Shown here: positions 2,964 to 50,025 of the stretch, in pieces
Position numbering within the stretch: the first letter of the stretch is position 1
Layout of the letters: the number at the start of each line of letters is the position of its first letter
Origin: Xanthostigma xanthostigma
Taxonomy: Eukaryota; Arthropoda; Insecta; Raphidioptera; Raphidiidae
Length of the DNA stretch: 64,000 bases
Direction: 5' to 3'
Assembly (NCBI GenBank): GCA_963575645.1
Contig: OY754475.1
Coordinates: 19,320,509 to 19,384,508, forward strand
Position numbers and translations under genes: made by a program
The notes under the pieces: generated by a model
Databases searched by the model: none
What the model saw: the letters and a program-made list of their open reading frames with translations, nothing else
Told to the model about the DNA's origin: nothing

Positions 2964-4978
2964 ATGATAAAAATATCGCTAAATGGCTTCGACTTCAGCG
3001 CAATGTGTCGATTGTGCTTAACAAGAGGCGGCACGTTGTTAGATATATTTGTCGTTTCATCTGAATTTACGGAGCAAATAGCTGATATAATTATGAAGTG
3101 TGCTCCGGTTCAGGTAAGGTCGCTTATTATACTTGATTACAATTAGTTACAAAGCAGGCTGTGAATCTCCCAAGTAAACGAAATAAATTGTCAACATCAC
3201 TTAAAATATGAACTATTAATTATTAATTATAGATAGATAAATAGATCAAATGCTTCATCGTGACATACAAGTCTGTATAATAGAGATCACACTTTCGCGA
3301 TTCGCAGATAACGAAATGCGACGAGATGCCGAATTTCATCTGTCGATCATGTTACACTCAATTGGAAAAAAGTCACCAGTTCCAGAAGCAAATCGTACTG
3401 TCTGACCAAACACTGCGGAGCTATCTTCTGCAAAAACGAACTTCGAACAGACAAACCAATGCTGCATGTTCCATTAAGGGACCTTCTGAGGATTCTTTAA
3501 TTCACGAAACTAATAAGGATATCACAATGAAAAGCGAGTCTTTAGACTTTCAAGACGTATCTGATATTAATGTCAACTTGAAAGAAGAGGTGCCTTCGAG
3601 TGATGCTTCAACATACACAATTAGCGAGAAAATCTTTATAAAATCTGAAATTAAAGAGGAACCAATTGATAACGAATCATCCATGCCAGTGGAATGCACT
3701 GATAACTTAATAGAAACTTTATCTAGAGAAGGCGGTAGTAAAACCAACAGTGAAATTAAAGAAGAACCGATAGATGACAATTCGTTAAAACCAACGGAAT
3801 GTACTGATATCTTAATAACCGATACGGAAATCATGTTTAAAAACTCAGAAATCGAAGAGCAATCGGATAACTTCACGCGTCATTCTCCTGCAGATTTAAC
3901 AGAACAGCGTGAAGATGGCATCAAAAATACTCCGGGGATTCATAAGAAACACAATAAATTGAGTAAAATGAAATATACGTGTAAACTTTGTAGTAAACGT
4001 TTCACCACTTTGAGTAAATTTAATATTCACAAACGTGCGCATACGGGAGAGAAGCCGCATCAGTGTGACGTTTGTAATAAGTTTTTTAGCTTTCCGAGTG
4101 ATCTTAAAATACACCAACGTGTACATACTGGTGAGAAACCGTATCGGTGTGACGTTTGTAAAAAGAGTTACACTCGATCGGATCGTTTGAAAAATCATCT
4201 ATGTCATACTGGTGAGAAGCCGCACAAGTGTGACTTTTGTAACAGATGTTTTACATTTTCACACGATTTGATAACACACCAACAGGTACATACTGGTGAG
4301 AAGCCGCACGGGTGTGACGTTTGTAAGAAGTTTTTTAGCTTTCCGAGTGATTTGATAAGACACCAACGCATACATACTGATGAGAAGCCACATCAGTGTG
4401 ACGTTTGTAAAAAGGGTTTCACTCGGTCGAGTGATTTGCGAAAACATCAGCGCGTACACACTGGTGAGAAACCATACCAGTGTGACGTTTGCAATATGTG
4501 TTTCGGCGAATTGAGTGCTTTAAACATACATGAACGGGTACATACTGACAAGATGCCATATCAGTGTGACGTTTGTAATAAGTACTTTAGCCAATTCGTT
4601 AATTTAACAAAACATCAACGCGTACATACTGGCGAGAAACCATTTCGATGTGACGTTTGTAATAAGAGTTTCGGCCAATCGGCTTATTTGAAATATCACC
4701 AGCGTGTACATACTGGTGAGAAACCATATCAGTGTGACGTTTGTAATAAGCTTTTTAGCTTTTCAAGTGATTTGATAAGACATCAACGCGTACATACCGG
4801 TGAGAAGCCGTATCAGTGTGACGTTTGTAATAAAGGTTTCAGCCAATCGGTTTATTTGAAGAAACATCAGCGTGTACATACTGACGAGAAACCATATCGG
4901 TGTGACGTTTGTAATGAACAATTTACTCAGTCAGCCAGTTTAAATAGCCACAAGCGGAAACACTCGTCAGTTGTTTAA
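2964..4978 (+). CDS. ZAD-C2H2 zinc-finger protein, gene 1 of tandem array
   Basis: Two exons: 2964-3113 and 3308-4978, with intron 3114-3307 (GTAAGG...TTCGCAG, phase 0), giving about 606 residues. The ZAD spans the intron, with zinc cysteines C15 and C18 in exon 1 and C62 and C65 in exon 2 (CRSC). ZAD is a known arthropod dimerisation module. A linker (about 95-270) carries two IKEEPID motifs and one LKEEVPS, which fit the SUMO consensus. Twelve C2H2 fingers with TGEKP-type linkers fill about 272-602. Finger 3 is one residue short between its histidines (HLCH). ATG 2964 is chosen because it gives the same 150-nt exon 1 as the four paralogues. AATAAA lies about 60 nt after the stop. Likely a nuclear DNA-binding regulator; targets unknown. 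Confidence 0.88.
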
Positions 4979-5005
4979 TTTATGGTTAATCATAATCTTC
5001 AAATC

Positions 5006-5093
5006 TTTGATTAACGTCTGAATAGAACTCTTCAAATAAATAAAATAGTCGACCAATTTTATTTATTTGAAGAGTTCTATTCAGACGTTAATC
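5006..5093. repeat. Hairpin just downstream of gene 1
   Basis: A near-perfect inverted repeat: TTAACGTCTGAATAGAACTC, CTTCAAATAAATAAAAT, a short GTCGACC centre, then the reverse complement. Related sequences occur at about 29936-29975 and 36845-36886, so this is probably a short dispersed foldback MITE rather than a terminator. Its AATAAA could serve gene 1 for polyadenylation. Confidence 0.6.
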
Positions 5094-5542
5094 TGTTAGT
5101 TATCTTCCACGACAAAATATATGACGTGTTACGTGAAATATTTAATTAAAAAAATCGCAAATCTCATTAAACTAATTATTATTTATCCTTGACTAGTGTC
5201 GTCCTAACAGATAGGTGATTTATTAATTAATATATTAAGAATATTAAAATTTAAAAAAATAAATATTTAAATAAGACTTGGAAGAGAATGAATTTAAAAA
5301 ACTGTACCGTCATCAACATCATAAATTAAATTGAAGCAAAAATTAATAGTTTCTTTGCAAATACGAACATCCATGGAAAGTCCTACGATTTACTAGTAAC
5401 TTTTAAGGTAGAATAGAATAGAATTTATTATCCATATATTTTGTCAAAAGCACAAAGTACAAAATAATAAATATAAATCGATATGCTAAGTAATATACAT
5501 AATTAAATACGAAAAAAAATCAATGCTATAAAGACACATTAA
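5094..5542. other. No gene; possible LINE tail remnant
   Basis: AT-rich. The part at about 5405-5470 (GAATAGAATAGAATTTATTA) resembles the reverse complement of a LINE 3' end with its short tandem tail. Nothing else is seen. Confidence 0.4.
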
Positions 5543-5936
5543 GTTAGTACGAGCACCAAGGCAACTTTAAATAAAAATCTTGATTTTTTTTATATTTCGG
5601 TAGATGGATGATATGTTTTCATTGATTTCTTCAAAACTAGTCGATGGAAATTTAAAAAAAACTATTTAAATTATAGTTAAAACCTTAATTAATAACAGTA
5701 GTTTTTTTAATTTCCACCGACTAGTTTTGGAGAAATCAATGAAAACATATCATCCATCTACCGTTTTATCATGAAGCCAATGTTAAATATGCCTTCTTTT
5801 GAAGTCATTTATTTATTTAAATAATCGGGCAACCCCCCCTAAAATTTTCAGAATTGGTTTAGACTTAGTCCAACTTCATATAAAAAAAATCAAGACTTTT
5901 ATTTAAAAATGCCTTGGTGTTCATACTACCTTATGT
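5543..5936. mobile_element. Foldback MITE (AGTACGAGCACCAAGGCA ends)
   Basis: The termini are inverted copies: GTACGAGCACCAAGGCA on the left, TGCCTTGGTGTTCATAC on the right. Inner arms (GATGGATGATATGTTTTCAT and complement) continue the palindrome with an AT-rich centre. Half of a second copy with the same arm is at about 40190-40335. No coding capacity. Confidence 0.7.
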
Positions 5937-5957
5937 AAAGCTTTACTCTTCTTTTAT

Positions 5958-6474
5958 GCCGGCACTTCACATGGCTATTTGTATTTGTGTATTTGGCATA
6001 TTTGGCAAACAATTACCAAGTGTGGAGGGTCTATTTGACAAAGTGTTGGCCTTATTTGCCTATTTGACAAATAAGGCCAATACCAAATACGCGTCACCGT
6101 GCGGTTGTCGGTTTTTCGAGGCACATCAAAGGAGTCAAATAGGCAAATACGGCAAATAAACCATCCACACAATGGCCATATTCAGAAGCGCACGCGCCGT
6201 GAACCTGTACGAACGTGCAGTATTTTTGTTTCTGTGCTGTGAGCGAGAACTGGAACAATTACTATTGAAAATGAATTGGGACAATGAAACAGTGCTAAAA
6301 TTCCTGGAATTTTGAGCTTTGCGTTCTGCTGCCAAATGTTTGTGTGTTTGCTATTTGACGGCCATGTGTAGATGGTCGTATTTGCCTCTATTTGCATGTT
6401 TGTCTTGAACGTCAAATAGTTTGCCAAATACAACAAACAACCAATAGCGAACACGAATAGCCATGTGAAGTGCC
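5958..6474. mobile_element. TIR MITE (GGCACTTCACATGGCTATT ends)
   Basis: The left GGCACTTCACATGGCTATT and right AATAGCCATGTGAAGTGCC are perfect inverted termini of about 19-20 bp, followed by looser matching with TTTGGCAAAC-type arms. The interior repeats ATTTGCCTATTTG motifs. Open frames here exist in several frames at once and reflect the palindromic sequence, not genes. Confidence 0.7.
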
Positions 6475-6793
6475 ACCTTTAAACAATAAATTCAAGATTT
6501 TTAATATCATGCGGTATCATAGTGTACATTTCGGCAAAATTACATAAGTATTATATCTAGTGTTTTGTCAGTGGGTTGGTCAGAAATGTATTGTAATTTT
6601 TTATCAGGCCATGCATTCACTGGATAAGTATCACCGGTGACCAAGACTGACTGTTTGGTCGTTTTTTTTCAGTCTATTAATATCTCATAAATCCTTAAAC
6701 ATAATACGGCGTTGTTGTGGTGTTCAGTATCTGTGATGTTATGAATTTTTTGGCAGTGCAGTGTTATCATCGTGAGGAAGTAAGATTCAAATA

Positions 6794-8498
6794 ATGGAAG
6801 AAATAGTGATAAATGACTTCGACTCAAGTACAACGTGTCGATTGTGCTTATCAAAAGGCGTTGCTGTTTTAAATATATTTGCCTTTTCAGACAAGTTAAT
6901 GGACCAAGTAGCGGATGTAATTATGAAGTGTGCTCCGGTTCAGGTAAGTCACTTTTAAATAGTTTGCTATTTATTATGTTTATATATTTCACAAACCATT
7001 ATAGTTTAATAATGTACCGCTAATTCATTTTCACTTTGTAGTTCCCAAAGTGTTATAAATTATACATAGATATATGTATGGCAAAATACCACATTTTTTT
7101 AATAAATATATTCATGATTCTTAGATAGCAAGATGCGATGAGATGCCGAACATAATCTGCGAATCATGTTATACTCAACTGGAGAAATGTAATCAGTTCC
7201 AGAAGCAAATAGTGCAGTCTGATCAAACACTACGTCGCTATCTACAACAACGAACTTCTAACAAACAAATCAAGGCTGAATGTTCCATTCAGGGGCCTTC
7301 TGAAGATTCTTTAATTCATAACATTAATACAGATGTCACGATGAAATGTGAAACTTTAGAATTTCAAGACGCGTCTGATATTAATATCAACTCGAAAAGA
7401 GAGATGCCTTCAAATTATACTTCAGTATACAGAAGAAACGAGGAAATCTGTTTGAAATCTGAAATTAAAGAAGAACCAATTGATGATAATTCAGCGATTT
7501 CAACTGAATGTACAGGTGACTTAGACATCGGTAATGGAATCAAGTTAAATGACTCAGATACCGAACAACAATCTGATAACGTCACACATATTCCTCCTGC
7601 TGATAATGATGCAACAGAATATTTTGATAATTGTAAAGATGAAAACAGAAACACTTCGGGAAGCGATAAGAACGAAGAATCAACTAAAAGGATATATAAA
7701 TGTGAGCATTGTAAGAAATGTTTTGCTTTTTTAAGTCAATTTAATATTCACAAGTATGAACATACTGGAGAGAAGCCGTATCAGTGTGACGCTTTTAAAG
7801 AGCGTTTCAGCGAACCAAAAACTTTGAAAATACACCAGCGTCTACATACTGGTGAGAAGCCATATCAGTGTGACGCTTGTAAAGAGCGTTTCAGCGAACC
7901 AAAAACTTTGAAAATACACCAGCGTCTACATACTAGTGAGAAGCCATATCAGTGTGACGCTTGTAAAGAGCGTTTCAGCGAACCAAAAACTTTGAAAATA
8001 CACCAGCGTCTACATACTGGCGAGAGGCCGTATCAGTGCGATTTTTGCGACAGGAGTTTCAATCAATTGTGTCATTTGAAATCACACCAGCGCATACATA
8101 ATGGTGAGAATTCGTATCAGTGTGACGTTTGTAACGAGCGTTTCAGCGAAACAATTCTTTTTAAAATACATCAGCGTCTACATACTGATAAGAAGTCATT
8201 TCAATGCGATAATTGCGACAGGGGTTTCAATAAATTGTCTCATTTGAAATCCCACCAGCGCATACATACGGGTGAGAATTCGTATCAGTGTGACGTTTGT
8301 AATAAGTGGTTTAAAGAATCATCTTATTTAATAAAACATCAACGATTGCATACTGGTGAGAAACCATATCAAAGTGACATTGATGATAAATGTTTGAGCT
8401 CTTCCTATGATTTGAAAACTTACCAACGCGTACATACTGGTGAGAAGCCATATCAATATAGCCACAAGTGTAAAAACCATAAAGATATAAGTAACTAG
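6794..8498 (+). CDS. ZAD-C2H2 zinc-finger protein, gene 2, with MITE-altered C-terminus
   Basis: Exons 6794-6943 and 7125-8498, with intron 6944-7124 (GTAAGT...TTAG, phase 0), giving about 507 residues. The ZAD cysteines are C15, C18, C62 and C65. The linker (about 95-240) has one IKEEPIDD motif. The finger region (about 240-500) is decaying. Finger 2 has lost its second zinc cysteine (Cys to Phe, 7794-7796). Fingers 2-4 are a recent 84-bp triplication. Finger 9 (YQSDIDDKCL) lacks both cysteines and one histidine. The last six residues (HKDISN) and the TAG come from a hAT-like MITE at 8478-8762. The ancestral ending, matching SSVV plus stop in gene 1, now lies beyond it at 8771-8785. The gene may be losing function but is open throughout. 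Confidence 0.82.
7779..8030 (+). repeat. Three tandem 84-bp zinc-finger units in gene 2
   Basis: Units 7779-7862, 7863-7946 and 7947-8030 are almost identical. All encode a finger with helix residues SEPKTLKIH. The first differs at the second zinc cysteine codon (TTT instead of TGT). This is a very recent unequal-crossover expansion. Confidence 0.9.
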
Positions 8499-8762
8499 AG
8501 TACGCGAGTGAGCCTTGAAAGTGTCTGCGATTGAGAGAGAGAAGGCTACTTACAATTCCGTATCACTATGGTAACTAAAGATAATATAAACAGCACATGG
8601 CTAGTTATATAAGGGTATCGTTTTCCCCGCCCTCCTCTCAACAGTTAATGATCTGTCAACGAGCGCTCATGAGAGAGAGAGAGAGAGAGAATGATATGGA
8701 ACGATTGCATCGTTCTCTCTCTGAACTGCAGACACTTTCACTTATGGCAAGCATAAAATATG
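8478..8762. mobile_element. hAT-type MITE inside the coding end of gene 2
   Basis: 285 bp flanked by the perfect 8-bp duplication GTAAAAAC (8470-8477 and 8763-8770). The left terminus CATAAAGATATAAGTAACTA matches the ends of the sister copy at 60801-61017, and both copies contain GAAAGTGTCTGC-type inverted subterminal arms. A (GA)n run is present. The element supplies gene 2 with its present stop codon. Confidence 0.85.
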
Positions 8763-8873
8763 GTAAAAACTCGTCAGTTGTTTAATTTTACATGTTTTTT
8801 CGGACAACACAAATGATAATCTGTAATTGTTAGTAGAAGTTTTGTTCCAAAAATATGTAATAATTGAAGAAGA

Positions 8874-9216
8874 TTTATTTGGTTGAGGAACAATTGAAAA
8901 ATAACATTCACCAGAGTATCGCTTGTGTTCAACGTTTCGAAAAAAATATTCATCATCAGGGCCTCAATGCAAGTTGAGATGGTAAATTGTGCAAATTATT
9001 GTTATATACATGATCATTCATTTTGAATTTGAACAGTTTACAAATTTAAAAATATCATAAAACAGTTTTTAAAGAAAATCGTTCTGTCCAATATATAAAT
9101 AAATATTGTACTTGCATTGAGGCCCTGATGATGAAAATATATTTTTCGAAACGTTGGCCATAAGCGATACTCTGGTAAAGCTTATTTTTCAATTATTCCT
9201 CAACCAAATAAATTTC
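8874..9216. mobile_element. Inverted-repeat remnant resembling Penelope-like element termini
   Basis: The arm at 8874-8985 (ATTTATTTGGTTGAGGAA...CCAGAGTATCGCTT...GGGCCTCAATGCAAG) is the reverse complement of about 9113-9216. Both arms carry a CGAAACGTT core next to a GATGATG stretch. That arrangement is typical of the regulatory repeats of Penelope-like elements and related retroelements. No reverse transcriptase remains. The class assignment is inference. Confidence 0.5.
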
Positions 9217-9864
9217 CTTCGATAATCTGTAAGTTGAAACAATGTGTTAAAATGTTTAAACAAGGAAATAGTAAGAAAATAAAGAACTGTGTATTTAAAA
9301 AAATGCAAAAAGTATTTGAAAAAGACTTACAAAAGAACGATATTATTCAAAAACTGTGCTTCCATCAAATATGAAGTTTGCTAAATCAATATCCTTGGAA
9401 TCGTTATATCAAATTGTTGAGAGAAACCATGGAATAGCTACACCCAATAATATATAACCTGAATTCTTATTGTGGACTGCGCTTTTTATACAAACGTTTA
9501 TAATATAAAGTAGCATTTTTGTGTTTTTCATCTGTATTTTTTCTTTATATAGCACCTAAGTATTTCTGCCCGTGATTTATTTAAAGTTTAAACAATAAAC
9601 TATTGAACGTCAGTATGTCAAACAATATGTCCGGTTCACTGAGCGAGGAGGGTAGAGTATGCGTGTGGTCATCTCTATCCTTTTCCTACGCGCACGATTG
9701 AGGCTAATGTATTATTTTGAGAGAGCTAGAAATTGGTTGCAACATCGGTCTGTGTTTTTCTTTGGTAGAAGGACACCTTTTAGACCGCTAGGGCATGTGC
9801 AGGCAATTACGAGACTTTGAAACGAACAATGAGTTAACTCGTAGTGAAAATATCCATAACTGAT
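9217..9864. other. Intergenic, no gene seen
   Basis: AT-rich spacer between gene 2 and the 5' block of gene 3. No repeat family or ORF with support. Confidence 0.5.
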
Positions 9865-10239
9865 ACATCGAATTCAGAAAATCTACGTGAAAATATTGAA
9901 ACACAAATAAAATCTTTCCAACAATGAGTGGAAAATATTTATTTTTAATTCCCATATTGTACCGGGTCGGATTTTCATGTTTTGCGCTCAAGGTTCAAAC
10001 AAAATTGGCGCCACGCTTCATCTTTTAATATACCCCAAACTATTTTTCACACAAAATCATCTCGTTCAAACGCTATAAGTTAAACATTGCTACGCCATCA
10101 GCCTTAATGGCGTCCAAGCGTCGTTCCAATTTAGCAACGGACTGTTTTCATAAAAGTGTGGAAAATAATCTTTCTGTAATCGACTCTGCTACACCGTTTC
10201 AGAAACGTACGCCACTGGGTAAAGAGTAAAATTCATACA
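9865..10239 (+). promoter_or_regulatory. Conserved 5' flank of gene 3, shared with gene 4
   Basis: About 370 bp aligns with 13263-13637 upstream of gene 4. Shared blocks include GAGTGGAAAAT.TTTATTTTTAAT, TAAGTTAAACATTGCTACGCC, TTAGCAA and AAAGAGTAAAATTCA just before the ATG. A dyad, ACGCCAT-N8-ATGGCGT (10092-10113), is kept in both copies, with a 7-bp spacer in gene 4. The block likely contains promoter and 5'UTR, but no transcription start is proven. Confidence 0.5.
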
Positions 10240-11676
10240 ATGGAACAGTTGTTGCTAAATAAGTTCAACATGAGTGAAGTGTGTCGATTGTGTTTATCGA
10301 AAGACGCCCCGGCGTTCGATATATTTACCTTTTCAACCGAATTGCAGAATCAAATAGCTGGTGTAATTATGAAGTGTGCTCCCGTTCGGGTAAGTTGGGC
10401 TTGAACAATATACATTTTAAAATGCTATTTATGTTCCAATCATTATTTATTTTGTGACAAGATTAAAATCAATACTGGGATTATCAGTGACAAAGAAAGA
10501 AGTTATATTAAAATTTATATTCTCGATTCTCAGATAACGAGATGCGATGAGATGCCAAATCTCATCTGCCAATCCTGTTACACTCAACTGGAGAAAAGTC
10601 ATCAGTTCCAGAAGCAAATAGTGCAGTCTGACCAAACACTGCGACGCTGTTTAAAGCAACTACGGACTACTAATAAACAAATCGAGGGCGAATGTTCCAA
10701 TCAGGGGCCTTCTGAGGATTCTTTAATTCATAACACTAATACGGATATCACAAAGAAAAGTGAATCTTTAGACAATAATGTCAACTTGAAAGAAGAGGTG
10801 CCGTCAAATTATAGTTCAGCATACGCAATTAGCGAGAAAATATTTATAAAAACGGAAATTAAAGAGGAACCAATAGATTATGAATCATTAATTGCAACGG
10901 AAAATAGCGATAACTTAATAGAAACTTTATCTAGAGAAGGTTGTAATAAAACAAGGTACGAAATTAAAGAAGAACCGATAGACGATAATTCATCAATTGA
11001 AACTGAGGGAGACGACACCATCGAAATGAACGTAAAAAACTCAGAAATCGAAGAACAACCTGATTACATCACGCACCTTCCTCCTGCTGATTTTGCTAAC
11101 AGTGAAGATGGAAACAAAAATACTTCGGAAAATCATGCAAAGCGAAAAGATTCAAGTAAAATGATATATAAATGTGAGATTTGTAATAAACATTTTGCCT
11201 ATTTATGTAAATTAAATGTTCACAATCGCATACATACTGGAGAGAAACTATATCAGTGTGACGTTTGTAATAAGTGTTTCTATTGGTCATCGCATTTAAA
11301 TGCTCACAAGCGTAGACATACCGGTGAGAAACCTTATGTGTGCGACGCTTGCAACAAGAGCTTCAGTAACTCAGGTAATTTGAGAAAACACCAACGCGTA
11401 CATACTGGTGAGAAACCATATCGGTGTGGCGTTTGTAATAAATGTTTCAGCGAATCAGGTGTTTTGAAAAAACATCAACGCGTACATACTGGCGATAAGC
11501 CATATCAGTGTGGTGTTTGTAATAAGTGTTTCAGGGATGCAAGCACTTTTAAAAAACATCAGCTTATACATACTGGTGAGAAGCCATATCATTGCGACGT
11601 CTGTGATAAGTCTTTCAACCAATCAAGTAACCTAAAAGAACACCAACGCTTACATGCAGATCCACAGCCAGTGTGA
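10240..11676 (+). CDS. ZAD-C2H2 zinc-finger protein, gene 3
   Basis: Exons 10240-10389 and 10534-11676, with intron 10390-10533 (GTAAGT...CTCAG, phase 0), giving about 430 residues. The ZAD has C15, C18, C62 and C65. The last exon-1 codon is CGG (Arg) where the paralogues have CAG (Gln). The linker has two IKEEPID motifs and LKEEVPS. Six regular C2H2 fingers fill about 262-428, the shortest set in the array. Past the TGA, 11674-11712 still reads as half a finger (CDVCNKHFTQ) in another frame, then stops. The protein has therefore lost C-terminal fingers by an old frameshift that gene 4 shares. AATAAA at 11700-11705. Likely a nuclear regulator; target unknown. Confidence 0.87.
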
Positions 11677-12555
11677 TGTTTGTAATAAGCATTTTACTCA
11701 ATAAATCGGTTTAAAACAGACTCAAAATTCTACTTTTCATATTTCACGTCAGGGATTGGGCCAGTGCAGTCTATCTCTGTGCCAACTTTCAAATTTTGCT
11801 TCAAATAGTTTCAAAGAAATTTACCTGCGACAGACAGACGGACATCGAAGTGGTTCGTTTGCATGGAACACAAAAATCCACATTGCATGTAAAACAGCAA
11901 ATCAGCATGTTGAAATTCCATACGCAGATTTGTAAACGTCGCGGGTGTGATATTGAATAACTGTTAGAAGAGAGATACAAGATTATAGATCAGTGACGGA
12001 TTTACCAGCAGGCTGAGTAGGTTTGAGCCTAGGGCGGCATATTTTAGGGGCGGCAAATAAAGATTATTTGATTACGTTAACAAATGTACATTATTTTGTA
12101 AGTAGCATACAAAAACGATTTCTTATTCAATTTCAACCAAATTGTTGGATTGTAAAAATAATCTAGGAACTGACAATTATAGAGTTACGGGCGGCAAAAA
12201 TTTAAAAGCCTATATTTAGGAAATGTGTAAATCAGTTATAGATGCTAAACATAAATTAGTGTACATAGTTATTACTGTAATAAAATATTGAAAATAAATC
12301 TGAGAACCTATCTGACTTTATATCGAACTGTCAAAAAGCCAAGATAAACATTTCGCATGCTTAACAGTGTCAATGATTTAATTGATCCAATAAAAACAAC
12401 CCCATCATATTTTCCCTATGTTCGGTACTATACTGTTTACACACTGTAAATATTTGAAATAATAATAAAATGATATTTATGTGCTTTTCAAATGTATTTT
12501 TTCTTTTCATCGTAAATCCATTTTTAGTGATACACGATGACACTAAGAATTTTTG
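11677..12555 (+). repeat. 3' flank of gene 3, duplicated after gene 4
   Basis: Segments around 11935-12545 align with 16165-16478 downstream of gene 4 and upstream of gene 5. Shared words include GTAATAAAATATTGAAAAT, TGTCAAAAAGC, AAAACAACCCCAT and TTTTCATCGTAAATCCATTT. The match shows that the gene, with both flanks, was duplicated as a unit. The gene 3 copy carries an extra insertion at 11991-12235. Confidence 0.75.
11991..12235. mobile_element. 245-bp insertion with 8-bp direct repeat
   Basis: TTATAGAT flanks the segment (11983-11990 and 12236-12243). The paralogous site near 16221 (GATTATAGACGATAAACAT) is empty. It begins CAGTGACGGATTTACC and includes GGGCGGCA words common in decayed hAT-type repeats. 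The termini match only weakly (TTTAC / GTAAA), so the family is uncertain. Confidence 0.65.
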
Positions 12556-12725
12556 ACGTGATAACGTCTTATAAATTGATGAAACACCAGCTGCACGCAC
12601 GAAAAAGTGTAACGTTGTAACGTTCCGCCTGTAAAATATATTATTAAACATGATATTCGAGCGGAATACGTTATCACGTAAAACTATCGTCCGTAAACCG
12701 ACTTTACAGACAACCAATTTTTTTT
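12556..12725. mobile_element. TIR MITE family B (ACGTGATAACG), deleted copy
   Basis: One end reads TTTTTGACGTGATAACGTC and the other CGTTATCACGTAAAAC followed by CCGACTTTACAGACAACCAA. Other copies: about 19905-20511, 21148-21584, 43209-43868 and 61926-62186. This copy has lost most of the interior. Confidence 0.75.
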
Positions 12726-12801
12726 TAATCTATTCGGAACCCAAAGGAATGGTGAGACCTCTGGTGAGAAATGCGCCGAACTGTCCTAAGGGGGTTTTGA
12801 C

Positions 12802-12872
12802 AGGTAAACATTGATTTAGAAAAGCATGATGAAGGCTATAGCCTCCATCATGCTTTTTTAAATCAATGTTTA
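12802..12872. repeat. 71-bp near-perfect palindrome
   Basis: TAAACATTGATTTA..AAAGCATGATG on the left and its reverse complement on the right, around a GGCTATAGCC centre. Small foldback element; no other copy noticed. Confidence 0.7.
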
Positions 12873-12923
12873 ACTTATGCCTTGGTTGTGTTCAGGTAGT
12901 CAGACTTTCAGACGAACTGTGAG

Positions 12924-13229
12924 TACAATACGCGCCACGAATCTAAAAGGCTAGGAAGTTAGATGCGGATGCGGGCTTGCGCTTGCACAGCCTGTTGAAA
13001 AACTGCAAACTCGCAACTCAACAAAACTAAAATAACAATAACAACTTGACAATAGCGTACTCGACTGTACTTTAAAGCAGGAAAGTGACAAAGGCAACGA
13101 GCCATCACGGCCAATCACCGACGAGCGCACGTTCCGTGCAGATGGGAATCTCAACGGCTCTAAAATGTGCCTTTGCGACGCTGTTTGTGACTAACTTCCG
13201 AACCTTTCAAATCCGTGGCGTGTATTGTA
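12924..13229. mobile_element. CGCGCC MITE (family A), copy 1
   Basis: About 306 bp with inverted termini TACAATACGCGCCACG and CGTGGCGTGTATTGTA. The interior contains TTTAAAGCAGGAAAG and TTGCGACGCTGTTTGTGACT. Seven copies lie in the window: here, 26888-27206, 27444-27770, 33121-33436, 52712-53030, 60454-60781 and 63122-63431. A conserved short frame (SLSCFKVQSST...) is repeated in every copy, but only as a consequence of sequence identity. Confidence 0.85.
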
Positions 13230-13262
13230 ACTAGTAATGCCGCCCAAATTTTTTGAATTATC

Positions 13263-13637
13263 GAACGCTTACATCGATTTTAGAAAACCGATGTGGAAAT
13301 ATTGTAACAACCATATCGAATTTTGTAACGAGTGGAAAATGTTTATTTTTAATATTTATATTGTGTTGGGTCGGACTTGCATGTTTTGCGTCCCGGGTTC
13401 AAGCAAAATTTCCGCCAAGTCTGGCCATTATTTTCCTCACAAAGTCATATTCGTAATAATTAGTGTCGTTCAAACGCCGTAAGTTAAACATTGCTACGCC
13501 ATCAGCCAAATGGCGTGAAAGCGCCGTTCCCACTTAGCAAACTGTTTCTTGGAAGTGTAAAGAATGATTTTGTGTAATAGGCTCGGCTAAACGGGGCCAG
13601 AAAAGTGTACGGCTGTTTAAAGAGTAAAATTCACACA
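13263..13637 (+). promoter_or_regulatory. Conserved 5' flank of gene 4
   Basis: Aligns with 9865-10239 upstream of gene 3. It carries the same dyad (ACGCCAT 13496-13502, ATGGCGT 13510-13516). It begins directly after a family A MITE. The corresponding part of gene 5 is replaced by a palindrome (16487-16629), leaving only about 15-20 bp of matching sequence before the ATG. Promoter content is inferred from conservation. Confidence 0.5.
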
Positions 13638-15173
13638 ATGGAAGAATTGTTGCTAAATAAGTTTAATATGAGTGCAGTGTGTCGATTGTGTTTATCAAAA
13701 GACGTTCCAGCGTTCGATATATTTACCTTTTCAACCGGATTGCAGAATCAAATAGCTGATGTAATTATTAAATGTGCTCCCGTCCAGGTAAGTTGGTCTT
13801 AAATAATATGTCTTTTAAAATGTCGATTATATTGCAATCAGAATCTGTTTTGTGACATACCAATACTGGATTACAATCAGTTACAAAGAAAGAAATTGTT
13901 TTACGAATATATTCTCGATTCTTAGATAACGAGATGCGATGAGATGCCGAATTTCATCTGCCAATCGTGTTACACTCAGCTGGAGAAAAGTCATCAGTTC
14001 CAGATGCAAGTAGTGCAAGCTGACAAAACACTGCGACGCTATCTACACCAACTTAGAACTTCTAACAAACAAATCAAGGCTGAATGTACCGTTCAGGGGC
14101 CTTCTGAGGCTTCAATAATCCATAACACCGATGCAGATTTCAAGTTGAAATGTGAATCTTCAGAAATTCAAAACGTGACTGGTATAAATGTTAACCTGAA
14201 AGAAGAGGTGCCTTCAAATTATAACGAGAAAATATTTTTAAAATCTGAAATTAAAGAAGAACCCATCGATTATGGTTCATTCATTTCTGCGGAAAGTACT
14301 GATACTTTAATAGAAACTTCATATAGAGAAGGCGGTGGTAAAACAAGCTGTGAAATTAAAAAAGAACCGATAGATGGTAATTCATCAATTCCAACGCCGT
14401 GTACTGACAACTTAACAAACACTCTTTCTGACGGTGTCGAAACCGTGGTAAAAAAATCAAAAATTGGAGAGTTCACGCACCATCCCTCTGCAGATATTAC
14501 AGAATGTTTTGATATTCGTGAAGAAGGGAACAAGCATACTCCCGGAAGCCATAAACACGAAAAATTAAAGCAATTGGAGTATAAGTGTGACGTTTGTAAT
14601 AAGTGTTTCAGTGCATCAAGTTATTTGAGAAGGCATCTTCTTATACATACGGACGAGAAACCATATAAATGTAACGTCTGCGAAAAAAGTTTTATCTCTA
14701 ATAGTACTATGAAAGCTCATGAACGTATACATACTGGTGAGAAACCATATCAGTGTGACGTTTGCTATAAGTGTTTCAGTTCTTCGGGTACTTTGAGAAC
14801 ACACCGACAGATACATACTGATGAGAAACCATATAGTTGTGGCGTTTGCGATAAGCGTTTCATAAGATTATCTCATTTAAGATTGCATAAGCGCATACAT
14901 ACTGGTGAGAAACCTTATAAGTGTGACTTTTGTAATAAGAGTTTCAGCCAATCGTGTACTTGGAGAACACACCAGCGCGTGCATACTGGTGAGAAACCAT
15001 ATCAATGTGGCGTTTGTAATAAGTCTTTCAGAGATTCAAGTACTTTTAGAAAACACCAGCGCATACATACTGGTGAGAAGCCATATCGTTGCGACGTTTG
15101 TGATAAGTCTTTCAACCAATCAAGTAACCTAAAAGAACACCAACGCTTACATACAGATAAGAAACAAGTGTGA
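13638..15173 (+). CDS. ZAD-C2H2 zinc-finger protein, gene 4
   Basis: Exons 13638-13787 and 13926-15173, with intron 13788-13925 (GTAAGT...CTTAG, phase 0), giving about 465 residues. The ZAD has C15, C18, C62 and C65. The linker (about 95-265) holds LKEEVPS, IKEEPID and IKKEPID motifs and is nearly identical at DNA level to that of gene 5 (14181-14480). Seven C2H2 fingers follow (about 269-463). The last finger is almost the same as the last finger of gene 3, and the same half-finger relic follows the TGA (15171-15210). AATAAA at 15197-15202. A GTG-led extension at 13605 is not used because ATG 13638 is conserved across the family. Confidence 0.87.
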
Positions 15174-15581
15174 CGTTTGTAATAAGCATTTTACTCAATA
15201 AATCGGTTTTAAACACATTCGCGTACGGTGACTGCTTATAGCCATAAAAATGAAAACGCTAGAATGACACTACGGTGTTAGTAGTATTTACTGTAATGTA
15301 AATAAACAAAATCAGTACAGTCACAGCAGTGAAATATCTATACTGTTACGATATTAGATACCTTCCACTGTCATGCAGTTCTACCGGCGTAATACAACAC
15401 TGTTTGTATTCAGAATTTATAGCTCTGTTCCAAGCTGTCTGAGAACGGTAACACAATGGACACCGTCTTGCGCAGTAGCTAAAACAAAACTGTTTGTATC
15501 AGTTTTTGAGGTACTGTGCAAGACTGCAACGGTTCTGTTACCGTTCTCAGCCAGCTTATATATACAGAGCTTATATATACA
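15174..15581. other. 3' flank of gene 4, no gene
   Basis: Contains the finger relic and polyadenylation signal of gene 4, then AT-rich sequence. The open frame from 15373 runs into a MITE and has no domain I recognise. Confidence 0.5.
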
Positions 15582-15997
15582 GTCGAACCCAGATAAACAA
15601 GAGTTCAAAAGACCGCGATCTCTTTTTCGCTTATGGAGATTTTTTACTAACCGGAGTTTCCAGCTTATAGAGGTACAGGAGTGGCCTTTCTTACTTATAG
15701 AGGTCTATAAAAATACAGCAAATACCTATGTAGTGATAAACATGAATGTTTAATTCGATACGTTCGACTATCGCTGATAGACGTGCATGCAAGTAGTAGT
15801 CTCAGTTTTAGAGGTGCAGGCAAGTAGTAGTCTCAGTTATAGAGGTCCATGAGTGAAAAACGTCTTTCTCTTATAGAGGTTTCTGTTTCTCACTTAGAGT
15901 TTTTAGAGGATTACAAAGACGGTACCTGGCAAGTACTCTCACTAAGAGAGTTTTCTCACTTACCCAGTTCTCACTTACTCAGGTTTGATTGTATTTT
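15582..15997. mobile_element. Tigger/pogo-like MITE
   Basis: Inverted termini TACAGTCGAACCCAGATAA and TTACTCAGGTTTGATTGTA. The interior repeats TTATAGAGGT several times, as in Tigger-type ends where CTCTATAA motifs recur. Similar objects lie at 31773-32559 and 38071-38421. The class is inferred from the style of the termini. Confidence 0.6.
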
Positions 15998-16478
15998 TAG
16001 TTCTTTAACGCAAACTCGAAGGTGATGTTAATAACAATAAGCATAAACACTTGTCAGATATTTCATTTTTTACGTTTAATGGTGAAAAACAAGTTATGAA
16101 CTCTCTTCTTTGACTGAATCTGTGCTAAGAGAAATATTTAGTTAAAAATGTCCGTAGGTTGTCAATAAATCGGCGGGTGTAATATTGAGTAAGTGTTAAA
16201 GAGGGAGAAATTGTGATTATAGACGATAAACATAAATAAGTGTTCATAATTAGTTATTATTATAGTAATAAAATATTGAAAATATATCTGTCAAAAAGCA
16301 AAGACAAACATTTCGTTGCATGGTTAACATTAAAAACAACCCCATTGTATTTTCCCTATATTCGGCTTTATGCTGTTTACACACAGTAAATATTTGATAT
16401 AATAACGTAACAGTTATGTACTTTTAAAATGTATTTTTTTTTTCTTTTCATCGTAAATTCATTTTTAGTGTACCGCCG
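15998..16478. repeat. Intergenic block paralogous to the gene 3 downstream region
   Basis: 16165-16478 aligns with 11935-12545, minus the 245-bp insertion. No ORF. It separates gene 4 from the palindrome in front of gene 5. Confidence 0.65.
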
Positions 16479-16486
16479 GCGGTATA

Positions 16487-16629
16487 TATGTTACGGTTAA
16501 TGCAAGAAAGTAGTTTATTCGCGAATTAACCGGCTAATACCCGAATTAACAAACGTCAAGGATTGGTTAATTCGGGTATTAGCCGGTTAATTCGCGAATT
16601 AACTACTTTCTTGTATTAACCGTAACATA
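16487..16629. repeat. 143-bp palindrome 48 bp before the gene 5 ATG
   Basis: The arms (TATGTTACGGTTAATGCAAG, AGTAGTT.ATTCGCGAATTAA, CCGGCTAATACCCGAATTAA) are repeated in reverse complement around a short AACGTCAAGGATT loop. It is a foldback MITE that has replaced the 5' flank conserved in genes 3 and 4, so gene 5 may be driven differently. Confidence 0.8.
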
Positions 16630-16677
16630 GACAACGACTGATTTTTTGAAGTGATCTTCCATAGTAAAATTCACACA

Positions 16678-18514
16678 ATGGAAGAATTGTTGCTAAATAA
16701 GTTCAACATGAGTGCGGTGTGTCGATTGTGTTTATCGAAAGAAGGCCCGGTGTTCGATATATTTACCTTCTCAACCGAATTGCAGAGCCAAATAGCTGAT
16801 GTAATTATGAAGTGTGCTCCCGTCCAGGTAAGTTGGGTTCAAAGAATATGCTTTTAGAATGTCAATTATAATTTTTTGACATAAAATTAAAATCAATATT
16901 GGATTGTAATCAGTGACAAAGAACGATTATATTCTCGATTTTCAGATAACGAGATGCGATGAGATGCCGAATCTCATCTGCCAATCATGTTCCACTCAAC
17001 TGGAGAAAAGTCATCAGTTCCAGAAACAAATAATACAGTCTGATCAAACATTGCGACGCTATCTACTGAAACTACGAACTTCTAACGAACAAATCAAGCC
17101 TGAGTGGTCCTTTAAGAGGCTTGCTACGAATTCTTCAATCCATAACACTGATACAGATATCACGATAAAACGGGAATCTTCAGAAATTGGAGACGTTTCT
17201 GGTATAAATGTTAACCTGAAAGAAGAGGTGCCTTCAAATTATAACGAGAAAATATTTTTAAAATCTGAAATTAAAGAAGAACCAATCGATTATGGTTCAT
17301 TCATTTCTGCGGAAAGTACTGATACTTTAATAGAAACTTCATATAGAGAAGGCGGTGGTAAAACAAGCTGTGAAATTAAAAAAGAACCGACAGATGATAA
17401 TTCATCAATTCCAACGCCGTGTACTGACAACTTAACAAACACTCTTTCTGACGGTGTCGAAACCGTGGTAAAAAAATCAGAAATTGGAGAGTTCACGCAT
17501 CGTTCCGCTGCATATATTACAGATATTCGTGAAGAAAGAAACAACCATACTCCCGGAAGCCATAAACACGAAAAATTAAAGAAAATGGAATATAAGTGTG
17601 ACGTTTGTAATAAGTGTTTCAGCGTACCGAGCTATTTGAGAAGACACCTTCTTATACATACGGGCGAGAAACCGTATAAATGTAACATTTGCGAAAGAGG
17701 TTTTATCTCTATCAGCAATATGAAGGCTCATGAACGTGTCCATACTGGTGAGAAACCACATCAGTGTGACATATGTAATAAGTGTTTCGGCAATTCTAGT
17801 AATTTGAGAATACACGAGCGCTTACATACTGGTGAGAAGCCATATCGGTGTGACGTTTGTGATAAGTGTTTCAGAGTGTTAAGCGATATGAAAAAACATA
17901 AACGAGTACATACTGGAGAAAAACCGTACAAGTGTGACGTGTGTAATAAGTGCTTTACTGCGTCTGGCAATTTAACAGTTCATAAACGCAGTCATACTGG
18001 TGAGAAACTGTATCAATGTGAATTTTGTGATAAGAGCTACAACGAATCGGTTCATTTAAAAAATCATCTTCGTATACATACTGGTGAGAAACCATATAAG
18101 TGTGACGTTTGTAATAAGTGTTTCAGTATTGCGGACACTTTGAAAAGACACAAACGCGTACATACTGGTGAAAAGCCGTATCGGTGTGACGTGTGTAATA
18201 AATGTTTCGGAAATTCTAGTAATTTGAGAATACACGAGCGTCTACATACCGGTGAGAAGCCACATCAGTGTGACGTTTGTAATAAGTGTTTTAGCGATTC
18301 GTACACTTTGCGAATACATCAACGCATACATACCAGTGAGAAACCATATCAGTGTGACGTTTGTAATAAGAGTTTCGCCAAATTAGATCATTTGAGAACG
18401 CACTATCGCGTACATACGGGTGAGAAGCCATATCGGTGTGACGTTTGTAACACACATTTTACACAGTTAAGCGGTTTAAATAATCACAAGCGGAAACATT
18501 CATCAGACGTTTAG
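16678..18514 (+). CDS. ZAD-C2H2 zinc-finger protein, gene 5
   Basis: Exons 16678-16827 and 16946-18514, with intron 16828-16945 (GTAAGT...TTCAG, phase 0, the shortest in the family), giving about 572 residues. The ZAD has C15, C18, C62 and C65 (CQSC). The linker carries LKEEVPS, IKEEPID and IKKEPTD, and shares a nearly identical 300-bp tract with gene 4. Eleven complete C2H2 fingers occupy about 266-570. Fingers 3 and 8 have the same helix (GNSSNLRIHERLH). The C-terminus KRKHSSDV matches gene 1 (KRKHSSVV), so genes 1 and 5 keep the ancestral end that 3 and 4 lost. All zinc ligands look intact. Likely a nuclear transcription factor. Confidence 0.9.
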
Positions 18515-41763: not shown

Positions 41764-42009
41764 TAATATATATTACCTATGAGTATAATTTTTTCTCCTG
41801 ATAGCTTTCGTGCTTACATAATTATTACAAAGAAATAATTCTACTCATAATAATTTACAGTACAACCATGTTCTATTATCAGAGAAACAGAATATAGCTG
41901 AATCAACAACTACTTTAATAAACCATCTTCTGTGCTTATGTTCGCCTGTTACTATTTTTCTCCATAAAATAATATGCAGACTAGTTTAAAAATACACTTC
42001 TGTGTACAA

Positions 42010-42483
42010 AACTTTTTAACAAAAAAATTAAACCGCCGAAAAACTGAAAAGCAAAAAATAATAAATCTTTTTATTTAACTAAGTTCTATCTGAGTAGTTG
42101 AACGTATGTGAAAGTCTAGTATATCTAAGTAATTTTGAGTCGGCGTCAACAATCCTTCGCCGGAAATCTCTGAGCGTTCACGAAGTTAATATGAGCGACA
42201 GAGCAACCCTAACGGGCACACGTCTTTGCGAGTGGTCGTGTGGAGAGCGCATGTTTAATGTTAATGTTTATCGCTGGAGATTTCACGTATCATTGTTAAT
42301 TTGATTTGGTTATTTCTTTTAGTGATCTTTGTTCATTGATGGTTTGACGCCGATTCAAAATTACTTAGATATACTAGACTTTCACATACGTTCAACTACT
42401 CAGATAGAACTTAGTTAAATAAAAAGATTTATTATTTTTTGCTTTTCAGTTTTTCGGCGGTTTAATTTTTTTGTTAAAAAGTT
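42010..42483. mobile_element. Foldback MITE with about 138-bp arms
   Basis: The arms at 42010-42147 and 42343-42483 are nearly perfect inverted copies (ACCGCCGAAAAACTGAAAAG, AAGTTCTATCTGAGTAGTTG, GAACGTATGTGAAAGTCTAG). The loop of about 195 bp includes a short frame without domains. Confidence 0.8.
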
Positions 42484-42544
42484 TTTATTTAATAATTTTT
42501 TGTGGCTATATAATTTATAATTGTAATATACACAACTCAGCATG

Positions 42545-45940: not shown

Positions 45941-46219
45941 TTTTCAATAATTATGAATAACGGGAATGCGGACACATAGGTATAATTCTTTTCTTTTATT
46001 GTTTACGTTTCATCAAAAATATTGACTTTGTCAAAGCTCAAAAAACAATTTTTTTAAATTAGAAAATAAAGTTTTATTTTTTTATGTTAAACTTTATTTT
46101 CTAATTTAAAAAATTGTTTTTTGAACTTTGACAAAGTCAATATTTTTGATGAAACGTAAGCAATAAAAGAAAAGAATTATACCTATGTGTCCGCATTCCC
46201 GTTATTCATAATTATTGAT
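45941..46219. repeat. 279-bp near-perfect palindrome
   Basis: The arms (TCAATAATTATGAATAACGG, GAATGCGGACACATAGGTAT, ATGAAACGTAA..AATAAAAG, GACTTTGTCAAAG, AAATTAGAAAATAAAGTTT) meet near 46080 with almost no loop. The arms are about 135 bp long. A foldback MITE or inverted duplication. Confidence 0.82.
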
Positions 46220-47453: not shown

Positions 47454-49553
47454 ATGGAGTCTGGATTAATAAATCTGTACCTCGGAGGGATACAACACTA
47501 TGTCCATTTTTTTCCATATTGACTTTATTACAGAGTTAAAATCAGCTTTTCTCATATTTCTTAGAGGAATAGAGCACTATGTCCAAAACCAGTTAGAACC
47601 GGATATAGCATGTTTTAAAACAACACCAAGTCCACTTTCATTTAGAGGGATAGAACACCATGTGGACTTGGTGTTTTATCCTTCTGAAGCATGTGAATTA
47701 CTACTGGACATAGTGTTGTATACCTCTACACAGCCTGGCGGATTGTTAGTGAACTAAGAGTACTTTCGACAGTTCTGATGTATTTTTGAGTCATATGGAG
47801 GCGGATACTGTCCATGCACTGATAGAGCGGAAGAGAAAAAAACTTAACAATATGACAATTCTAACGCCCTGGGATTGGCAGCAGTTAGTCAGACAGACCT
47901 CAATGAAATATACTGTGCATAATATGGAACTGGAAGATTTTAAAAATTTTAGGTCTTTGTACGATGTCAAAACATGTGAAAATCCACCCTTTATTAATAG
48001 AAAAAAAGATGTCAACAAAGAACAAGTTCTTCTGTCAACCTGTGTTCAACTGCAAGTAAAACAGAACAGCATGGGAACTCTGTTTTTGAAAAGTAATTTC
48101 GCTGATGAAAACCAGGAGATTGACCTTGTTAGGTTTCGAAGGCGACACCTTACATTGCCAAACGATTTGCAACTGGTAACACCAAGTCCAATACCAATAT
48201 TAGGTCTTATAGTACAATAACTTTATTAGAGGGATACAACACCATGTCCATTAAAAAGTGAAAAAAAACCGTAAAAAAGGTTTTTTTTTTATTTTATAAC
48301 AACTGCATGATGTAAATAACAATAAATAGAATGTTCTGGTAAAATATTGTTTCAACATCTCAATAAATAGCTGTGCCAATAACACTTTTTGTTGAAAAAA
48401 AGTTTAAAACTCCTCTCCTGTAAAGTTATGAAAATGGACATAGTGTTGTATCCCTCCGAGGTACAGAAATAGAGTATTACCTTTAAAATCACTGACTACT
48501 ATAGCACTGGCGACGCATGTGTGGTCTTCGAAATTCGTGAAAGATACTTACAAAAAAATTGTAACTGATTTTGAAACAATTGAACAATTAATTGATTCAA
48601 TAAGGGATAGAGCCAGCGGTAAAGTAATGGAACTAATATTACCTCCTCGTTTTAACAATGCATTGAAATTCCACGTGAAAATTGTCGGATATAATATAAA
48701 GGAATTTTTCGGTACAACATATTTCATTGATGAAGTAATGTGCGTCGGGGATCGAATTATCTGTAATATGTATGGAGAAATTGAAGTGGGTAAAACAATC
48801 AAAGCAAGCGTTGTGAATAACGAATTGATAGACGTTGAAACAAGATGTTATTTTAGCTTGGCTTACGCGTATTGTAGTGACGATGAAGTGACCGATCTCT
48901 GGATGAAATGTGATAGTGAAAGATTTAAAGAGAAATTTGATTTCTTTTTGACTCACGATAAAAACCGATTTAAAATTTGTTTTGATAAATCGGATGTCTC
49001 TAACAGCTACGAGAAGCATTTAAATGGAATAGCTCATAATTATTTATTTCCTTCCGGAAATTATGACGCTTTTGAAAGCATATTCGAGAAGTGTCCTTGG
49101 AAAAAAAAGGGTACATATCTGGGAGATGTTGACGAGTATACTTTTAAAACAGTAGATTCTAAAATTATTCGTAAATATCATGGTGCACAGCTTTTGAGAA
49201 CCGATTACAGTGAAATGTGTATTTTTCATTTGCTTAAGAGATGTATGGGCAATCCCCAAATCATTCATTTGTTTCATAATCATTGCATACTTTTGCCAGA
49301 AACAGTTGAACTTATTGAATATGCATGTGTTCAATCGTTAATTTGGGTTATCTTTAACAGAATCAGTGATAATCCAGAAGATTTATACCGAAACGTTCTT
49401 TATTCGTTGTGCGAGTCGAGTTTATTCCAGTACTTGAAGAGAAGCGATAGCATTGACGTAGACGGCAAAACTTTTCGAACGGCTATGATAGAACAATGTG
49501 ACAAAATCGACAATCCGAATATAGCTATATTAAAAAAAGCGTTAGAATGTTGA
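47454..49553 (+). CDS. Uncharacterised protein gene interrupted by a TIR element after codon 7
   Basis: I do not recognise the family. ATG 47454 opens MESGLIN. The reading frame then meets a 992-bp element (47475-48466) and resumes at 48468-48471, continuing without a stop to TGA 49553. Removing the element plus one AAAT copy gives 367 codons; splicing at GT 47477 / AG 48466 would give 369. The first residues after the break are RVLPLKSLTTIALATH. The protein is soluble-looking, with no signal peptide or membrane segment. It is rich in Cys, Lys and Phe, mostly predicted helical by eye, with acidic and basic stretches (CPWKKKGTYLGDVDEYTF, HLFHNHCILLPETVELIEYA). A TCAGT initiator-like word is at 47415-47419, 35-40 nt before the ATG. 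Starting at the GTG at 48519 would omit the conserved-looking leader. It could be a pseudogene, or an intact gene if the element is spliced. Confidence 0.6.
47475..48466 (+). mobile_element. 992-bp TIR element with 4-bp duplication and iterated terminal motif
   Basis: Perfect 36-bp inverted termini (47475-47510 and 48431-48466) begin CTGTACCTCGGAGGGATACA and continue ACACTATGTCCATTTT. AAAT flanks both sides (47471-47474 and 48467-48470). The core GAGGGATACAACACYATGTC recurs inside in both orientations: plus at 47562-47589, 47643-47667 and 48226-48252; minus at 47660-47686 and 47703-47731; a partial copy at 47620-47637. One small ORF lies within. A 4-bp duplication occurs in several superfamilies (for example Sola and Chapaev), but no DDE transposase is present. 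It is non-autonomous or of unknown type. Confidence 0.88.
47795..48220 (+). CDS. 141-residue ORF inside the TIR element
   Basis: ATG 47795 to TAA 48220, ending 5 bp before an internal copy of the terminal motif. It encodes a basic protein beginning MEADTVHALIERKRKKLNNM, with TPWDWQQLVRQTS, then MELEDFKNFRSLYD, VLLSTCVQLQVKQNSMGTLF and VRFRRRHLTLPNDLQL. It has no signal peptide or catalytic motif that I recognise. I have a vague memory of similar W..LVR.T / DFK.F / F.....V..RRR patterns in uncharacterised arthropod repeat proteins; this is unverified. A TTG at 47786 would add three residues. It may be a captured or degenerate element protein. Confidence 0.5.
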   Translation: MEADTVHALIERKRKKLNNMTILTPWDWQQLVRQTSMKYTVHNMELEDFKNFRSLYDVKTCENPPFINRKKDVNKEQVLLSTCVQLQVKQNSMGTLFLKSNFADENQEIDLVRFRRRHLTLPNDLQLVTPSPIPILGLIVQ

Positions 49554-49684
49554 ACGAGCCTTTTTCCTGAGATCAGTGCATCTGATAATAGTTCACAAGT
49601 CAGCACTTGTTTTAAAAACAAACATTTATTTGTCATGTAGCAATTACGTATTATTTTTGAAGTGAAAACTTCTTTAGCGGCGTT

Positions 49685-50025
49685 GTACACTTTTTTTGTA
49701 ATGGGTAAAAAATGTTAAACTCGCGTCAGGACACGTGACCTGATCGAAAATTCGAAAGACGAAAACTTTTGTACACTTTTTTTGTAATGGATAAAAAATG
49801 TTAAACTCGCGTCAGGACACGTGACATGATCGAAAATTCGAAAGACGAAAACTTTTGTACACTTTTTTTTGTAATGGGTAAAAATGTTAAACTCGCGTCA
49901 GGACACGTGACCTGATCGAAAATTCGTAAGACGAAAACTTTTGTACACTTTTTTTGTAATGGGTAAAAAAATGTTAAACTTGCGTCAGGACACGTGACCT
50001 GATCGGAAATTCGTAAGACGTTAAT
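49685..50025 (+). repeat. Minisatellite, about 88-bp unit, four copies
   Basis: Units start near 49685, 49770, 49856 and 49943. Each reads TTGTACACTTTTTTTGTAAT, GGGTAAAAAATGTTAAACTC, GCGTCAGGACACGTGACCTG, ATCGAAAATTCG(A/T)AAGACG. Each contains the CACGTG E-box palindrome. It begins 130 bp after the stop of the interrupted gene. Minus-strand frames through it are an effect of the repeat. Confidence 0.88.

Follow-up and report, generated by a model that had tools for sequence, protein, structure and literature searches.

The window analysed here is a 64,000-nucleotide stretch of contig C12 of the Xanthostigma xanthostigma assembly, and all features of the locus lie on its + strand. A start codon at position 47454 (context caaaATGG) opens a leader of seven codons, ATG GAG TCT GGA TTA ATA AAT (MESGLIN; 47454-47474), which is parted from the rest of its gene (48471-49553; 360 codons and a stop, with the first in-frame ATG past the insertion at 48627) by a 992-bp element at 47475-48466. 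AAAT stands on both sides of the element, at 47471-47474, where it overlaps codons 6-7, and at 48467-48470. The first 36 bases of the element are the exact reverse complement of its last 36, giving perfect terminal inverted repeats (TIRs) at 47475-47510 (CTGTACC...) and 48431-48466 (...GGTACAG). The left TIR holds the proposed splice donor, a GT at 47477-47478, and the right TIR the proposed acceptor, an AG at 48465-48466. Deletion of the element and one AAAT in silico produced a single open frame from 47454 to a stop ending at 49553, which encodes 367 amino acids (7 leader and 360 further codons) and places the insertion site between codons 7 and 8; the remaining frame contains no in-frame stops. 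The element with its perfect repeats and flanking AAAT after codon 7 had been described in the initial annotation with coordinates that are right to the base, and the open frame of about 360 codons reported past it is part of the 367-residue frame restored here.

The interrupted gene belongs to a large family. At an E-value limit of 0.001, the 360-codon part matches at least 39 further places in the genome, and the top-scoring paralogue among those listed is 36% identical to it. Twelve of the 39 listed matches cluster at C12:17.7-18.8 Mb, on the same contig as the window, and six of the 39 listed genome-wide carry in-frame stops, so broken members also occur in the family; the cluster and the stop-bearing matches together suggest birth and death of family members. 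We fetched 15 of the 39 listed paralogues, chiefly the better-scoring ones. All 15 run across the insertion position in one open frame without the element, and no intron was seen there in any of them. The first ATG lies 3-9 codons ahead of the site in 13 of the 15; paralogue L079 has an ATG 9 codons ahead of the site and a second one further upstream, and L069 starts about 41 codons ahead. Short leaders and similar ATG contexts recur among the paralogues, with examples such as MEQQNIALNKVLDLKS and MGNKKIVLNKVLPLQ to be set against MESGLIN / RVLPLKS in the window. As the paralogues pass through the site in one open frame with a nearby upstream ATG, the leader belongs to the gene, and homologues with a joined leader, whose absence the initial annotation had named as evidence against its proposal, are present, although in different letters. 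A conserved stretch surrounds a tryptophan within the first 59 residues, the tryptophan being found in 16/16 aligned sequences, that of the window included. The gene product matched no Pfam family, no convincing relative among solved structures (best E 0.066), and nothing in phages and viral contigs at the settings used; a single-sequence fold prediction had a mean pLDDT of 34.4, too poor for use. Directly downstream of the gene is a tandem array of an 86-bp unit (49683-50020; 3.9 copies, 95% matches). Elsewhere in the window, five long single frames on the + strand at 3326-18514 look by eye like C2H2 zinc-finger proteins with a similar amino-terminal part, and would form a local gene cluster.

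A search of the assembly (623 Mb, 28 contigs) for further copies of the element, also proposed in the initial annotation, yielded 14 in total, on which the DNA, protein and pattern searches agreed. They are distributed over C2 (2), C3 (2), C4 (3), C5, C6 (2), C7, C9 (2) and C12, measure 989-995 bp, are 99-100% identical and share the same ends. Over 13,944 aligned cells, the 14 copies show 19 substitutions relative to the majority letters, some of them common to several copies; the window copy has no private changes and is identical to two other copies. The 36-mer of the window copy recurs exactly at 26 of the 28 copy ends; of the other two, L021 departs from it by one mismatch on the left, and L019 by a 3-bp insertion plus a substitution on the right. 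A perfect 4-bp duplication flanks 13 of the 14 copies (ATAT in eight, ATTT in two, ACAT in two and AAAT in one), with the duplication ambiguous at L010 and L015, which sit in AT repeats, and no matching duplication at L020. Because the 13 other copies share its ends and 12 of these have their own perfect 4-bp duplication, the insertion in the window is not a chance repeat.

Only one copy of the 14, that in the window, interrupts a frame of over 169 codons, a count to which copies within short, split exons would be invisible. At L013, the joined frame of 169 codons had no Pfam match. When one open frame near each of the copies L009, L010, L013 and L014 was scanned against Pfam, only that at L010 matched (DUF4817), and it lies about 0.8 kb beyond the copy; the frame scanned at L013 is limited to the portion ahead of the site and then runs into the element. 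Many copies outside genes with no splicing had been named in the initial annotation as evidence against an intron. Of that statement, the part concerning location is borne out, in that no frame of over 169 codons is interrupted by any of the 13 copies other than that in the window.

The element is non-autonomous and probably of Sola2 type, a label based on its duplications and termini. Sola elements in general make 4-bp duplications according to a review (PMC10741241), and for published Sola2 elements these are AWWT, with ATAT, AAAT and ATTT printed as examples (PMC3627910). The same three AT-rich duplications and inverted ends are found here: 11 of the 14 copies have AWWT, and the TIR is 36 bp long and perfect in the window copy. 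The full-length relatives of the element may encode a DDD/E transposase, which would be a further resemblance to the Sola2 elements in that source (PMC3627910). In contrast, the duplications of two copies are ACAT, outside AWWT, L020 has none, and a 992-bp non-autonomous element with perfect 36-bp ends differs from the published examples, whose ends are 12-21 bp (PMC3627910). Compared with insect miniature elements as described for iMITEdb (PMC5199201), the inverted ends, the fixed duplication length and the lack of a complete transposase are shared, but 992 bp exceeds the averages of approximately 370-480 bp given there for the superfamilies quoted, and an open piece of transposase is retained. 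The window also contains hairpin-like inverted repeats at 42008-42485 (142-nt arms, 99% complementary) and 45944-46218 (114-nt arms, 97%), which are possibly other short transposons.

The retained piece is a 141-codon open frame that starts at an ATG and is followed by a stop (47795-48220); it matches the carboxy-terminal part of frames of approximately 650-745 amino acids elsewhere in the genome. It is 44-46% identical to its best-scoring genome relatives, with 55% identity over one 61-residue stretch. While the remnant itself reached no Pfam cut-off, with only a chance-level match at E 0.14, PF25273 (DUF7869) was found above its curated cut-off in all five related frames scanned. Alignment of seven relatives revealed seven invariant acidic columns. 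Three of these, namely the aspartates of a DL motif and of SDN/SDS and the glutamate that directly follows GHT, could be a DDE triad. The remnant starts beside the last candidate triad residue and keeps only that one of the three. Since most of the transposase is absent, the element is not expected to mobilise itself. The same genome contains a related full-length element of approximately 3.2 kb, with a 743-amino-acid open frame for a DUF7869 protein, ends of CTGTG...CACAG and, in the three copies examined, the duplications ATAT, ATTT and ATAT. The three copies of this family (L029, L030 and L032 with L071-L073) are at least 99% identical over the stretch compared, and judging from their sequences it is apparently a recently active, complete Sola2-like family. 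The relatives L025-L028 seem to end in CAGCA...TGCTG, as read from the alignment edges, so CTGT...ACAG is not universal.

We also searched for an autonomous partner. The exact 24-mer of the element end had 26 matches in the genome, all within the 14 copies, and was unmatched in viral contigs. A 22-mer with up to 3 mismatches gave 57 matches, of which 55 fell in the ends or inner repeats of the 14 copies and two, single sites on C7 and C8, were left out of the partner assessment; no partner was found. An 18-base inner repeat motif, with up to 4 mismatches, had no match in 16 other transposase loci (L023-L038), each comprising 1.5 kb on either side of the protein match, a span that does not always include both ends. 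Near-identical copies without a detected partner suggest that the element arrived very recently, lost its source or was cross-mobilised.

Taken together, these observations make it very probable that the locus records a recent insertion of a non-autonomous Sola2-type element which disrupts one single-frame member of the family, the GT and AG being a by-product of its termini. An internally deleted cut-and-paste DNA transposon would have entered the gene very recently, using an AAAT at the boundary of codons 7 and 8 as its target. The mRNA of the interrupted allele would then read into the element and stop after 22 codons: as the initial annotation had pointed out, in-frame stops in the element leave unspliced mRNA with a short peptide, and the frame from the gene ATG ends after 22 residues (MESGLINLYLGGIQHYVHFFPY, then a stop). 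The allele would be null, or at best would make a protein without its first 59 residues via the ATG at 48627, and from its sequence it is most likely null or much weakened. That the rest of the frame is still open would reflect too short a time since the insertion for decay to set in. The very recent knockout that had been put forward as one of two explanations thus agrees with the intact duplication, the two identical copies, the element-free paralogues and the stop-free frame.

A less severe outcome, in which transcription through or from the element and a start at the ATG at 48627 yield a shortened protein without the first 59 residues, is in our view unlikely. The downstream frame is intact for 360 codons and that ATG is in frame, but the part lost would include the conserved stretch around the tryptophan. 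There is also no ATG between the last in-frame stop of the element and the gene, and therefore no ATG-started fused product begins there.

The other explanation put forward was that the element is a new spliceosomal intron, spliced at the GT that starts with its third base and at the AG that closes it, giving a product that begins MESGLIN-LN-RVLPLKS. Recomputation confirmed that the proposed sites would excise 990 nt and add two in-frame codons (L and N). The spliced leader resembles paralogue leaders such as ...IALNKVLDLKS, and as the paralogues have leaders of varying length, the protein could probably accommodate the two extra codons. All 14 copies moreover carry the GT and AG at their ends. 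Wherever the duplication is 4 bp long, the splice leaves 2 + 4 = 6 nt, which creates a stop in only one of the 12 type-by-phase combinations for the four duplication types seen. As the ends are inverted copies, this holds in either orientation, and the fixed residue stems from element termini that are common to a related full-length element. The observation that the element plus one duplication is a multiple of 3, to which the initial annotation had drawn attention, is immaterial to splicing, 6 nt being left at any copy length from 989 to 995 bp. Against these points, 79% of random 36-mers contain both a GT and a CT at some position, and 15% have them within the outer 10 bases.

The strength of the sites also speaks against an intron. 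With splice weight matrices drawn up ad hoc, and scores in bits, the donor TCT/GTACCT agrees with 4/9 consensus positions and scores -5.1, which puts it at or below 57.7% of the window's 3,824 GTs. The TIR acceptor scores -0.9, a value equalled or exceeded by 37% of the 3,213 AGs in the window, and is thus slightly above a typical AG. As a control we used 15 exon gaps in five chaperonin genes of the same genome, of which eight yielded a junction under the rule applied, and seven none. In the eight inferred introns the donors score between 1.2 and 6.6 and the acceptors between -6.3 and 6.3; one junction (L085; acceptor -6.3) looks wrong. The control rule takes the best-scoring candidate and so favours high scores; the equivalent selection at 300 random places, 194 of them usable, gave best pairs with a mean donor of -3.4 and a mean acceptor of -1.1. 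The TIR donor lies below the former mean and the TIR acceptor about equals the latter, and the sum of the proposed pair, -6.0, compares with a 95th percentile of 2.7 at random places. A scan without score limit found 13 GT-AG pairs that would restore the frame by removal of a single intron; all score -5.35 or lower, and none is positive on both sides. The proposed pair ranks second among them and leads the pairs that leave the protein nearly complete, while the top-ranked pair (-5.35) shares its donor and costs about 44 residues. Any one-step splicing at this locus would, on these scores, probably use the TIR donor, but nothing in the sequence points to high efficiency. Weak splice sites are sometimes used; judged by the strength of these sites, splicing is probably absent.

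Introners derived from non-autonomous elements offer a precedent for introns of this kind; one Aureococcus family carries its two splice sites internally and adds 12 nt, four of which come from the element (PMC9860276). The duplication, the GT and AG inside the element and the few codons added if it were spliced resemble that family as described there. The differences are a very weak donor and 13 of 14 copies outside any frame of over 169 codons. Copies inside coding genes as introns would be expected of an introner, and here a single copy of 14 interrupts such a frame; the uninterrupted homologous exon of the 15 fetched paralogues is equally expected of any exon insertion. On this basis we do not file the element as an introner. 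Among open-licence papers we found no report of a Sola element spliced as an intron, a result that does not prove absence. With 57.7% of GTs scoring at least as well as the donor, eight control introns far above it and 13 of 14 copies outside frames of over 169 codons, the proposal of an intron made by transposition is not supported, and we consider it distinctly improbable. More improbable still is the wider claim, framed on sequence features, of a Sola2-type element that is spliceable in either orientation, always adding two codons, and that would here be the first intron of an intronless gene and a terrestrial-animal introner at its birth.

We therefore return to a recent, disruptive insertion, in which the terminal GT and AG would be a by-product of the CTGT...ACAG termini and not working splice sites. 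The locus offers a clean example of how easily a fresh insertion into an exon mimics a new intron, the CTGT inverted ends supplying GT and AG free. The 14 near-identical copies without a detected partner can in turn serve as a case study of a Sola2-like element that arrived, or multiplied in a burst, very recently.
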